A stretch of 64,000 nt of DNA. Source: an uncultured Treponema sp. Its GTDB lineage: Bacteria > Spirochaetota > Spirochaetia > Treponematales > Treponemataceae. The DNA lies in contig CASGBA010000006.1 in the NCBI GenBank assembly GCA_949299755.1, positions 186,001 to 250,000 on the forward strand, given 5' to 3'. The translations under genes were made by a program, and so were the position numbers. Shown here in pieces: positions 54,120-59,326 of this stretch (position 1 is its first letter; every line of letters begins with the position of its first letter). The notes beneath the pieces were generated by a model. The model saw nothing but the letters and a program-made list of their open reading frames with translations, was not told the origin of the DNA and did not search any database.

Positions 54120-55613
54120 GTGCCTTTACAACTATATAACACCATGGGCAGAAAGACCGAAGAATTCCGTCCCATAACCCCCGGAAAAGTTTCATTTTAC
54201 GGCTGCGGGCCCACTGTCTATAATTATGCCCACATCGGGAACCTCCGGGCCTATGTATTTCAGGACACCTTGGCGCGCACCTTGCGTTTTTTAGGGTACA
54301 AAGTAACCCATGTAATGAATATCACCGATGTGGGGCATTTAACAGGGGATGCCGATGAAGGTGAAGATAAAATGGTAAAAAGCGCCGCGGAAAGGGGCAA
54401 AAGCGTCCTTGAAATAGCTGATTTTTACACGAAGGCATTTTTCAACGACACTGACAGGCTGAATATCAGGCGCCCCGACATTATCTGCCGGGCCACAGAA
54501 CATATTGACGACATGATAAACCTGATAAAAAGGATAGAAGCCAACGGCCACACCTACACTGCCGGCGGAAATTTATATTATGATGTCACATCCTATCCGG
54601 ATTACGGGAAACTTGCCGGATTGAATCTTTCAGATTTGAAAGCCGGAGCCCGTATTGATGTGGATGAAAACAAACGGAATCCCTTTGACTTTGTACTGTG
54701 GTTCACAAAAAGTAAATTTGAAAACCAGGCCCTCACCTGGGATTCCCCCTGGGGACGGGGCTATCCCGGCTGGCATATCGAATGCTCCGCCATGAGCATG
54801 AAATACCTGGGCGAGCATTTTGACATACACACCGGCGGCATCGACCACATCACAATACACCACACAAATGAAATCGCCCAGTCAGAGGGAGCCACCGGAA
54901 AAAAATGGGTGAATTACTGGCTTCACAATGAATTTTTAGTGCTGAATAAAGAAAAAATGTCAAAATCCTCAGGAGACTTTTTAACCCTCCAGAAATTAAT
55001 CGACCAGGGCTACGGAAGCGGCGACTACAGGTTTTTCCTGTTGGGCGGCCATTACCGCAGCCAGCTGGCTTTTTCCTGGCAATCCATGGACAGTGCGAAA
55101 AACGCCCTTAAAAACCTGATCCAGCGTACTTCCAGGCTTTTGGAGGCTGCCGGGAACGTTCCATCCGGAAATGAAGACAAGGCCGGTTCCCGGGATTGGG
55201 GAAGCGCTTCGGCAAGAATGGAAAATTTCCGTACCGCCCTGGAACAGGATTTGAACACACCCCGGGCCCTTTCGGAGCTTCAAGCTGTCATAAAGGAAGG
55301 CTTAAACGGTGCCATCCTGCCGGCAGACGCTGTGAAGGCGGTGGCTGCAATGGACGGGGTTCTCGGTTTGCGGCTTTTGGAAAAAGCGGCGGAAAAAGGC
55401 GGGGATTCCGGCGGTTCCTCCGGATCTGCAACCCTCTCCGTGGAAGAAAGACAGCGTATAGAGGATTTGATTTCAAAAAGAGCCGCCGCAAAAAAAGAGA
55501 AAAACTGGGCGGAGGCTGATAAAATAAGGGATATGCTTGCCGGCGAAGGAATTATATTGGAAGACGGGGCTTCCGGCACTATTTGGAAGCACATACCTAA
55601 AAACGGTGTGTAA
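54120..55613 (+). CDS. cysS: Cysteinyl-tRNA synthetase
   Basis: 497 residues. GCGPTVYNYAHIGNLR has the zinc Cys and the HIGH motif (HIGN); KMSKSSGD is the KMSKS loop; WHIECSAMS holds another zinc ligand. The start is GTG 54120 with GGAGG 5 nt upstream. The following sigma-factor gene begins 16 nt downstream. Confidence 0.97.
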   Translation: MPLQLYNTMGRKTEEFRPITPGKVSFYGCGPTVYNYAHIGNLRAYVFQDTLARTLRFLGYKVTHVMNITDVGHLTGDADEGEDKMVKSAAERGKSVLEIADFYTKAFFNDTDRLNIRRPDIICRATEHIDDMINLIKRIEANGHTYTAGGNLYYDVTSYPDYGKLAGLNLSDLKAGARIDVDENKRNPFDFVLWFTKSKFENQALTWDSPWGRGYPGWHIECSAMSMKYLGEHFDIHTGGIDHITIHHTNEIAQSEGATGKKWVNYWLHNEFLVLNKEKMSKSSGDFLTLQKLIDQGYGSGDYRFFLLGGHYRSQLAFSWQSMDSAKNALKNLIQRTSRLLEAAGNVPSGNEDKAGSRDWGSASARMENFRTALEQDLNTPRALSELQAVIKEGLNGAILPADAVKAVAAMDGVLGLRLLEKAAEKGGDSGGSSGSATLSVEERQRIEDLISKRAAAKKEKNWAEADKIRDMLAGEGIILEDGASGTIWKHIPKNGV

Positions 55614-55629: not shown

Positions 55630-56172
55630 TTGTTTGATATACAAAAGCCCTTGAGGGCTGCTGATGAAAAAGATTTTAAAGAAATTTACAGTGCGGCCAT
55701 GCCTGTCATTTTTAAAGTAGCCCTAAGGGTTGTGGGAACGGAGGAGGCTGCTGAAGATCTTTGTCATGACGCTCTCATTAAAATGACGGAAAAGGATATG
55801 TATTTCCCCTCTGTCAATGATGCGAAATACTGGCTTATCCGTGTTGTAAAAAACGCTTCGCTAAATTATGCAAAGCGGAAGGCAAGAGAAAAAAGGGCAT
55901 ATGAAAGGGCTTTGAAAGAAGACCGTAAATCAATGGATTCCGGGGAAACGGAGTTATTGAAAGGAGACACAATAAAAAAAGTCCAGGCAGCGCTTCAAAA
56001 ACTGCCTGAAAATTTGAAAATTGTATTGCAGTTAAAAGAGTATGGAGATTTGAACTATAAAGAGATAGGTAGAGTTTTAGGAATAACAGAAGGAAACGTG
56101 AAAGTCCGTGTTTTCAGAGCGCGGGAACAACTTTCAAAATTGATAGGAGATGAAGATGTCTACATGCCCTGA
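55630..56172 (+). CDS. ECF-type RNA polymerase sigma factor
   Basis: 180 residues. Sigma2 region FKEIYSAAMPVIFKVALRVVGTEEAAEDLCHDAL and sigma4 region LPENLKIVLQLKEYGDLNYKEIGRVLGITEGNVKVRVFRAREQL match Sig70 family extracytoplasmic-function factors. The start is TTG 55630, preceded by GGAGG at 6 nt; the frame opens 31 codons earlier inside cysS without similarity. It overlaps the anti-sigma gene by 17 nt. Confidence 0.92.
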   Translation: MFDIQKPLRAADEKDFKEIYSAAMPVIFKVALRVVGTEEAAEDLCHDALIKMTEKDMYFPSVNDAKYWLIRVVKNASLNYAKRKAREKRAYERALKEDRKSMDSGETELLKGDTIKKVQAALQKLPENLKIVLQLKEYGDLNYKEIGRVLGITEGNVKVRVFRAREQLSKLIGDEDVYMP

Positions 56173-56935
56173 CACAGACCTTTATTCCGCATACGTGGAC
56201 GGGGAAATACCGTCACCCTGGAAAGAAAAACTTGAAGAACATCTTTCAACCTGTGAAAAATGCAGGCTCATAGAGCAGAAATACAGACACCTTCATGAAA
56301 CCGTCCTGAAAACAGAAAAGGAAGATTCCGATGTCAGCACTGAATTTCTGGAAAAATCCTTTCGAAAAGTTTCCTCCAGATGGGAAATAGCTTCCTCCAA
56401 TGTTTTAACCGGAAATCCCAATCACAAATGGGCGGTCGGAAAAAAAACCGTCACCATGCCTTATTTTGCTTTGGCCGCCATGTTTCTTGCGGCGGTATTC
56501 ATTCCGTCTTTCTTTACGGTGAAAAATGCGGAATCCCGTATTTCTGATATCCAGCAAGGAAATAAAATGGCGGTGGAGGCGGCAAAGGCTGAAATGCTTC
56601 TTGCGGGTTTATCAAAATACCAGAATAATATTTCACCAAACTCCGTATCAGTATACAGCAATGATTTTTCCACGATCGATGAAATTTCCACTTACGTAAC
56701 CTCACATGAAAATAATCCGGGCAGCCTTTCAAAAAAGAATTATTCTAATTCCAGCTCCACAAAATTCGCCCTCATAGACTCATTGAAAATGTTCTCACAA
56801 AATAAAAATTTGTTTCCCAACGGAAAAAGTAAATATATAATTATTAAACTGCCTGAAGTTATCCATTTCGGGACAGAATCTAATCGTCAATATTCCGGCA
56901 ACCGGGAATATATAACGAATGTAAGCCGTCAGTAG
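56156..56935 (+). CDS. Zinc-finger anti-sigma factor, membrane-anchored
   Basis: 259 residues. The N-terminal zf-HC2 (LEEHLSTCEKC, His and CxxC) binds zinc and the cognate sigma factor. One membrane helix (FALAAMFLAAVFIPSFF) follows, then ~120 extracytoplasmic residues rich in Ser and Asn. ATG 56156 has GGAG at 6 nt. It presumably holds the ECF factor until an envelope signal arrives. Confidence 0.85.
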   Translation: MSTCPDTDLYSAYVDGEIPSPWKEKLEEHLSTCEKCRLIEQKYRHLHETVLKTEKEDSDVSTEFLEKSFRKVSSRWEIASSNVLTGNPNHKWAVGKKTVTMPYFALAAMFLAAVFIPSFFTVKNAESRISDIQQGNKMAVEAAKAEMLLAGLSKYQNNISPNSVSVYSNDFSTIDEISTYVTSHENNPGSLSKKNYSNSSSTKFALIDSLKMFSQNKNLFPNGKSKYIIIKLPEVIHFGTESNRQYSGNREYITNVSRQ

Positions 56936-56936
56936 A

Positions 56937-58622
56937 ATGATAGAAAAATTAAAAACCCTTTTACTCAGTTCCGGGATAGCCAGGATTTTATGCATCCCGA
57001 TCCTTTTTATTATTTTTATATCCTCCGCCACAATTATTTCAAAATTAACGGCAAAAAGTCCGGAGCTTATACGCATCAATCCCCCTGTAAGCGCAAAGGG
57101 GGAAGTTGTAGCCATAGAAGGCAACGGATTCGGAAAAGAACAGGGTGACCAATGGATAGAAATTTCAGGGGTTAGGGTTTCTTCAAGTTCATATATAAGC
57201 TGGGACGACAATAAGATACTGTTTGTAATTCCGGAAAACTATGAGGACGGATTAATACGGGTTTGCTCCAGGGACAGGCAAAGTAATATGCTTGTTTTTG
57301 CCAGACGGGAAAACATTCCGGAAGAAGCAAAAACCGTGAATACAGGGAATATTCCCGTTATCCAGAGTCTGGACGCATCCCAAAAGGAAATAGGGAAAAT
57401 CCTGGTTATTTCAGGATTGAATTTCGGTATAACCAGGGGAAATTCCGGCGTTTTATTCACCAAAACCCAGGAAAATTATTCCGGAGCTGTTTCGGACAAA
57501 GGAATTCCATCCACCCCCTTGATAATGCAGGAAGAAACCGATTTCGGCTATGATTTTTGGAGTGACCAGGAAATAAGGGTGCGGATTCCTGACGGGGCGT
57601 CCTCAGGACCGATTTACGTTAAAACGGAAAGAGGAATGAGTTCCCCGGTTAATTTAAGAATAGCCGATATGCCCGGGACAAAAAGGTTTGAAAACCAAAG
57701 GCTTTATGTTATTTCCGAAAATGTGGACATATCCGGAATTACGGCAGGAAACGGAAGCAAACTTTTCCTGCGGATACCGCTGCCTGTTACAACCGCTTCC
57801 CAGCAAAACATGAAAATACGGGAATCCTCCCCTCCTCCTTACATGGAAAATTACCGTGGGACAATCCTGCATCAATTTGAAAATCTGAAAACCGGTGGCA
57901 GCATAAACGTCAATCACACAATTGTATTAACCAATTCCGATATTATAACAACCATGAATGTCCAGCGTATAAAGCAATATGACACATCGTCTCCAGTATA
58001 TAAAACTTTCACAGAAGCTGACGATCTTATCCCGGCTCATACGGAAGAAATCAAAAAAGTGCTTGCCCAAATCCCCGGGGCGGGGAACCAGAATCCATAT
58101 AGAAAGGCAAAAGCGATATATGACTGGATTTTGGAAAACATAAAATACCGGCTTGTTACGGACAAAAACAAACTTCCAGTCTCAAGTTTGGTTTCCGGGG
58201 AAGGTGATGTTTATGACATGACCATAATTTTCTGCGCTCTTGCCAGAACGGCGGGTATTCCTGCCTTGCCATCGGCGGGAGTTATTGTGGATATGCAACA
58301 GGAAACAATCCCCCATTGGTGGGCGGAATTCTATATTGAAAATTTCGGATGGGTTCCCGTGGATTTGGGAATGGCCATGGGTATTCCCTACGAATCAGAA
58401 CACAACGGCATTGAATCAAAAGTATGGTATTTTGGAAATATAGACGGAAACAGGATTTCTTTTTCCAGAGGATGGATTCACCAAATCCCGATGATAACCA
58501 ACGGAAAAACCGTCTCCACACCCAGATCTTTTGCTTTCCAAAAGGTTTGGGAAGAATCCAACGAAAACTTGACCAGTTACGCTTCACTTTGGACAATACC
58601 AAAACTTATAGGTGTATACTGA
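56937..58622 (+). CDS. Transglutaminase-like protein with IPT/TIG repeats
   Basis: 561 residues. N-terminal membrane anchor (LCIPILFIIFISSATII), two IPT/TIG-like modules (~45-130 and 135-250), then a transglutaminase-like core (~370-500). His in PHWWAEFYI and Asp in WVPVDLG are present, but the usual Cys is absent: the aligned position is Val in GDVYD (about residue 423). It may be a binding or sensing protein. It starts 1 nt after the anti-sigma stop. Confidence 0.8.
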   Translation: MIEKLKTLLLSSGIARILCIPILFIIFISSATIISKLTAKSPELIRINPPVSAKGEVVAIEGNGFGKEQGDQWIEISGVRVSSSSYISWDDNKILFVIPENYEDGLIRVCSRDRQSNMLVFARRENIPEEAKTVNTGNIPVIQSLDASQKEIGKILVISGLNFGITRGNSGVLFTKTQENYSGAVSDKGIPSTPLIMQEETDFGYDFWSDQEIRVRIPDGASSGPIYVKTERGMSSPVNLRIADMPGTKRFENQRLYVISENVDISGITAGNGSKLFLRIPLPVTTASQQNMKIRESSPPPYMENYRGTILHQFENLKTGGSINVNHTIVLTNSDIITTMNVQRIKQYDTSSPVYKTFTEADDLIPAHTEEIKKVLAQIPGAGNQNPYRKAKAIYDWILENIKYRLVTDKNKLPVSSLVSGEGDVYDMTIIFCALARTAGIPALPSAGVIVDMQQETIPHWWAEFYIENFGWVPVDLGMAMGIPYESEHNGIESKVWYFGNIDGNRISFSRGWIHQIPMITNGKTVSTPRSFAFQKVWEESNENLTSYASLWTIPKLIGVY

Positions 58623-58642: not shown

Positions 58643-59326
58643 ATGGTGAAAGTTTTATCCCTTGGAGGTTCCATTGTCGCTCCTGAAACGCCGGATACAG
58701 GCTTCCTTTCTGAATTTTCCGGGTTAATCCGTTCATGGCTTTCCGAAGATTCAGGTAGAAAGCTAATACTTGTGGTAGGCGGCGGAGGGCCGGCAAGAAT
58801 TTACCAGAAAGCTTTAAAAACTATTGTTCCCGAAACGGAAAATGAAACGGCAGACTGGATTGGTATTATGGCCACAAGATTAAACGCCCAATTACTGAAA
58901 GGAATTTTTGCCGACATCTGTCCTGGAGATGTTATTTATGATCCTACAACTGTTTCAATTTTCTCCGGAAGGATGATAGTGGCTGCCGGATGGAAACCTG
59001 GATTTTCCACAGACAATGACGCTGTTCTTCTTGCTGAAAGATTCTCTGCGGATATGGTTGTGAATCTTTCAAACATTGAAAAAGTTTATACAGATGACCC
59101 GAAAAAAAATCCGGAAGCAAAACCCATTGACTCAATTTCATGGAAAGATTTCCGTAAAATGGTGGGCGATGAATGGGTTCCCGGAAAAAATGTGCCCTTT
59201 GATCCCGTCGCAAGCCGTCACGCAGAAAAAGCCGGGATAAAGGTTATTTGTGCATCCGGGAGGGACATAAACAACCTGAGAGCCATTCTAAACGGGGAGG
59301 ATTTCACGGGAACCCTTATCGGTTAA
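58643..59326 (+). CDS. pyrH: Archaeal-type UMP kinase
   Basis: 227 residues of the amino-acid-kinase fold. KVLSLGGSIVAPE (phosphate loop) and LVVGGGGPARIYQ match the archaeal PyrH-type enzymes also found in some bacteria, which phosphorylate UMP to UDP. AAGGAG precedes the ATG. It follows the transglutaminase-like gene by 20 nt; the last 4 nt overlap the convergent lipoprotein stop. Confidence 0.85.
   Translation: MVKVLSLGGSIVAPETPDTGFLSEFSGLIRSWLSEDSGRKLILVVGGGGPARIYQKALKTIVPETENETADWIGIMATRLNAQLLKGIFADICPGDVIYDPTTVSIFSGRMIVAAGWKPGFSTDNDAVLLAERFSADMVVNLSNIEKVYTDDPKKNPEAKPIDSISWKDFRKMVGDEWVPGKNVPFDPVASRHAEKAGIKVICASGRDINNLRAILNGEDFTGTLIG

Follow-up and report, generated by a model that had tools for sequence, protein, structure and literature searches.

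The third gene of a sigma/anti-sigma factor cluster in an uncultured Treponema sp. encodes a membrane-anchored transglutaminase-like protein (here TGL) which lacks the catalytic cysteine, belongs to a family conserved through the Spirochaetia, and is separable from the sigma factor in both directions. The reading that we favor, with a probability of roughly one half, is that TGL is a membrane-tethered periplasmic pseudo-transglutaminase which serves to bind a peptide or protein of the envelope without acting on it catalytically, and that it is the product of a stress operon without being obligatory to the sigma switch. The window is the whole 64,000-nucleotide stretch of DNA that was analyzed, and all positions in Table 1 refer to it.

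Table 1. Features of the sigma/anti-sigma/TGL cluster and its flanking genes
Feature	Position	Strand	Basis
cysS, cysteinyl-tRNA synthetase	54120..55613	+	ORF; usual upstream neighbor of the cluster across class Spirochaetia
ECF sigma factor, 180 aa, TTG start	55630..56172	+	Pfam Sigma70_r2, Sigma70_r4_2; TIGR02937
Zinc-binding anti-sigma factor, zf-HC2, HxxxCxxC	56156..56935	+	PF13490, 28.9 bits (cut-off 22.2)
TGL, anchored, two IPT/TIG domains and a pseudo-transglutaminase domain, 561 aa	56937..58622	+	PF01833 (x2), PF01841 (E 1e-20)
Val425 codon, catalytic Cys position	58209..58211	+	Alignment with the Cys of 3isr and with Cys-bearing paralogs; Cys in 0/68 in the order
His460 codon, catalytic His position, retained	58314..58316	+	68/68 in the order
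Asp476 codon, catalytic Asp position, retained	58362..58364	+	68/68 in the order
Amino acid kinase-family gene, UMP kinase-like	58643..59326	+	PF00696; frequent downstream neighbor in Treponematales

The initial annotation had described a cluster of a TTG-started sigma gene, a zinc anti-sigma gene and a gene for an anchored IPT-transglutaminase-like protein, and the open reading frame coordinates and Pfam matches bear this description out. The sigma factor has Sigma70 regions 2 and 4 only (Pfam, TIGR02937), the mark of the ECF group; its gene overlaps that of the anti-sigma factor by 17 nt, and a single nucleotide separates the anti-sigma stop codon from the start of TGL. The anti-sigma protein is recognizable as a ZAS factor, combining a zf-HC2 domain above the cut-off with one membrane segment in its sequence and a position adjoining an ECF sigma gene; its C-terminal part is presumably periplasmic. 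The TTG start at 55630 lies 7 nt downstream of a GGAGG, and its context, TTGTTTGA or similar, is kept in close relatives, one of which uses GTG. Conservation of this weak start (55630-55637) in the genus and near relatives suggests that low translation initiation of the sigma factor may be selected. Downstream of the cluster, a gene for a glucosaminidase-domain protein (PF01832, 59323-59967, minus strand) converges on the kinase gene.

TGL is the only gene with a Transglut_core domain that a profile search found in this genome. The domain covers residues 382-476 and scores 74.5 bits against a Pfam cut-off of 23, which places it in the transglutaminase-like superfamily (PF01841); the nearest solved relative is PDB entry 3isr, whose chain is matched by the TGL family profile at 2.1e-8, and TGL has in common with this superfamily the GIPA helix, the histidine and the GW.PVD motif. 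The TIG part of the family matches a CGTase-type domain in the PDB. At its N-terminus the protein carries a hydrophobic anchor, for which relatives in the family survey have a membrane segment or, in some f5 genomes, a lipobox, and it is predicted to be oriented toward the periplasm. Compared with an orthologue of 83% identity, dN/dS is 0.069 overall and 0.066 in the transglutaminase-fold domain (with synonymous sites near saturation), values which indicate strong purifying selection. A structure prediction made from two sequences reached a pLDDT of 34, too low for the model to be of use.

Where the catalytic cysteine of 3isr (VCRDFA) would be expected, TGL has Val425; this pairwise match is weak (E 0.041), and the cysteine of the Cys-bearing paralogs aligns with the same residue. 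Valine at the cysteine position, within GDVYD, had been proposed at about 58205 together with an intact His and Asp, and both points hold: His460, Asp476, Trp462 and Trp472 are invariant in 68 distinct Treponematales orthologues, none of which has Cys at position 425, where Ala, Ser, Thr, Pro, Val, Asp and others stand instead. Thus TGL has the catalytic histidine and aspartate of active transglutaminases and not their nucleophile, which, in distinction from the PF01841 superfamily at large, is replaced throughout the operon-linked TGL family. Members from other Spirochaetia families likewise have no cysteine there, mostly having Ser, and the same position is without Cys in the Borreliaceae proteins. 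Since all relatives are without it, a recent inactivation confined to a single genome can be rejected. Transglutaminases retrieved with the same profile and not linked to the operon keep the cysteine in 12 of 13 cases, comprising nine of ten unlinked paralog domains, the other one having Tyr, together with L179, L182 and L183. Separate Cys-bearing transglutaminases (L142-L150) are also found in a few Treponematales and in other members of the phylum, and from their sequences these are likely to be active relatives.

On the best tree the Cys/non-Cys character changes three times, and only once when well-supported branches alone are considered, so a single ancient loss of the cysteine is compatible with the tree; for the letter itself the tree has at least 25 changes. 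Support is weak at depth and long branches come together, and the topology was used for these counts only. The proposal of a catalytically dead transglutaminase fold is thereby strongly supported, and the sequence comparisons argue that the dead state is no local oddity, being old and conserved across the Spirochaetia.

Could TGL still be an enzyme that uses another nucleophile, either a serine at the cysteine position, as in many deep lineages, or Cys433? Outside Treponematales, class-level members most often have serine there, and the His and Asp are kept within that order; however, the residue is Val here and mostly A, T, P, V or D in Treponematales, and the histidine has been lost in several of the Ser-bearing families. 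The initial annotation had named a "Cys435-region (IIFC)" as an active-site candidate: the residue is in fact Cys433, and it is an unlikely nucleophile because its counterpart in 3isr is an Ile and only 32 of the 68 orthologues have a cysteine there. We regard residual catalysis by either residue as highly improbable.

An inactive transglutaminase of bacteria has been described in RloB of P. aeruginosa, where it is fused to seven membrane helices (PMC12239564). Like RloB, for which there is an envelope phenotype, TGL would present an inactive transglutaminase domain to the periplasm from a membrane anchor. It differs in having one N-terminal anchor in place of the seven helices, two TIG domains, and sigma and anti-sigma genes as neighbors, with no ATP-grasp or protease partner, and the Pfam search gave no match to the RloB-type family. 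In the literature searched we found neither a described treponemal sigma/transglutaminase system nor a description of TGL as a protein family.

TGL is present in 264 of 274 genomes of Treponemataceae, in 364 of 394 sampled genomes of Treponematales, and in much of the class Spirochaetia, through which the usual gene order is cysS, sigma, anti-sigma, a gene for a secreted protein that we call X, and TGL. Co-occurrence with the sigma pair, named beforehand as a test of the functional association, is very high and bears the association out: sigma and anti-sigma genes lie upstream of TGL in all 38 Treponemataceae loci, and a sigma gene adjoins TGL in 23 of 24 Spirochaetia loci outside Treponematales. 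Among 30 TGL loci from the other Treponematales families, 24 have a sigma or anti-sigma gene; of the remaining six, four are fragmentary or truncated at a contig end, and in two (G318 and G367) TGL is elsewhere.

Such linkage might be a matter of frozen gene order, TGL having an independent housekeeping role in the envelope and merely residing in a conserved cysS neighborhood. Frequent neighbors do include cysS as well as, in Treponematales, the kinase gene on the downstream side, and the Borreliaceae keep TGL beside cysS with the sigma factor, anti-sigma factor and X all missing. However, a class-wide order of overlapping or abutting genes exceeds what linkage to cysS needs, and we consider this explanation quite unlikely.

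The initial annotation had instead suggested a sensor of wall peptides or a third regulatory partner. Such a partner would bind the periplasmic part of the anti-sigma factor, or a wall peptide, and control proteolysis of the anti-sigma factor, as RseB does with RseA. In modules of the RpoE-RseA-RseB type, an ECF sigma factor, a membrane anti-sigma factor and a periplasmic third protein are encoded in one operon. The clustering is shared by the treponemal locus, and the compact arrangement of the genes, the near-universal linkage, an anchor in the membrane like that of the anti-sigma factor, and the status of TGL as the only third gene left in the Treponemataceae cluster all speak for this proposal. 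The linkage part of the claim stands, but an obligate role is not supported. TGL is a transglutaminase fold, in distinction from RseB, and does not show the obligate co-occurrence with a sigma/anti-sigma pair by which an RseB-like co-regulator would be known.

The evidence against an obligate role is a loss in each direction, counted in genomes at least 90% complete as gene absences may reflect assembly gaps. All 19 of the genomes which we take, from genome size and gene order, to be Borreliaceae (L158, L162-L178 and L180) have a diverged TGL directly after cysS with neither anti-sigma gene nor X, and a profile search for ECF region 4 gave no match in any of the 19, control genomes being positive. 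Conversely, seven high-quality Treponematales genomes have the sigma gene and no TGL. Six of these (G333, G354, G357, G361, G369 and G446, each at least 90% complete) keep sigma with no match to TGL, G446 coming from the unlisted part of the Treponematales genomes with no TGL match. The seventh, G031 (1.1 Mb, 99% complete), is of the size of T. pallidum, which we presume it to represent on the same grounds of size and gene order; here cysS, sigma and anti-sigma are followed by a phosphotransacetylase-like gene, and neither X nor TGL was found. At those sigma loci of the other six that were examined, the anti-sigma gene and X remain, and the anti-sigma tail is intact in the TGL-less genomes. 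TGL is thus neither necessary for the sigma pair nor dependent on it, and a third-partner role, although it accounts for the linkage, appears to us rather unlikely.

We take the locus names TP0092 and bb0600 to apply to the genes of these genomes. TP0092 is the sigma factor of T. pallidum, for which regulon work is cited in PMC7309211, and bb0600 of B. burgdorferi has been noted for a CGTase-type domain (PMC2845121), the same domain type that the TIG part of the TGL family matches. The two stand for the opposite outcomes: the TP0092-type locus, in a T. pallidum-sized genome, has cysS, sigma and anti-sigma at the same place but is without TGL and X, whereas the bb0600-type group keeps TGL and lacks the sigma factor.

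Protein X, a previously undescribed protein of about 170-210 aa, is encoded between the anti-sigma factor and TGL (for example L103:1813-2367, alignment A3) and has no Pfam match above the cut-off. Among the matches listed, every Treponematales genome that has X comes from a family other than Treponemataceae, so X has been lost there or is too diverged to be seen. X stays with the sigma/anti-sigma pair where TGL has been lost or moved, as in G318 and G367, where it lies beside the sigma gene on a different contig from TGL, and outside Treponemataceae it tracks the pair more closely than TGL does. This makes X the likelier regulatory partner in those families, judged by gene content, and it fits the position of the RseB co-regulator better. 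The anti-sigma factors also show a C-terminal GxP tail, "..VIIxLP..F..GEP..LRAADY" (e.g., L103:1232-1813), seen in 34 of 42 X-bearing and 2 of 32 X-less loci in a post hoc comparison that is confounded by phylogeny.

We therefore return to TGL as a tethered binding module. Its anchor, its TIG arms and a conserved pocket devoid of the nucleophile suggest such a module: the arms would hold the transglutaminase-fold domain at the periplasmic face, the nucleophilic cysteine was probably lost early, before the Spirochaetia diversified, and the Cys-less domain most likely binds an envelope peptide or protein non-catalytically, a wall peptide being one possible ligand. TGL would be co-regulated with the sigma operon, and its position in the cluster makes it probably an envelope-maintenance product of a stress operon; a maintenance role is preferred over that of an obligatory sensor since the sigma pair persists without TGL in several lineages. 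Against this reading, conserved adjacency to the anti-sigma gene is also expected of a co-regulator, the Borreliaceae may have repurposed TGL after losing sigma, and the replacement of His by Tyr in several class-level families means that the pocket is not universally kept. Moreover, a regulatory role of TGL is possible in Treponemataceae, where X is missing. A more speculative scheme, and in our estimation an improbable one, would make the family a periplasmic receptor for peptidoglycan or an envelope peptide. In most lineages its signal would reach the ECF sigma module by way of X, and in Treponemataceae via the anti-sigma factor with no intermediary; in Borreliaceae it would have been redirected to an output that involves no sigma factor.

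What began as a single odd gene is a protein family conserved through the Spirochaetia. The natural double dissociation, with TGL lacking a sigma factor in Borreliaceae and sigma lacking TGL in a T. pallidum-sized genome, makes a role apart from the switch testable, and X emerges as an overlooked candidate regulator of spirochaete envelope stress. TGL itself would appear to be an ancient binding protein of the envelope, and one that the switch does not need.
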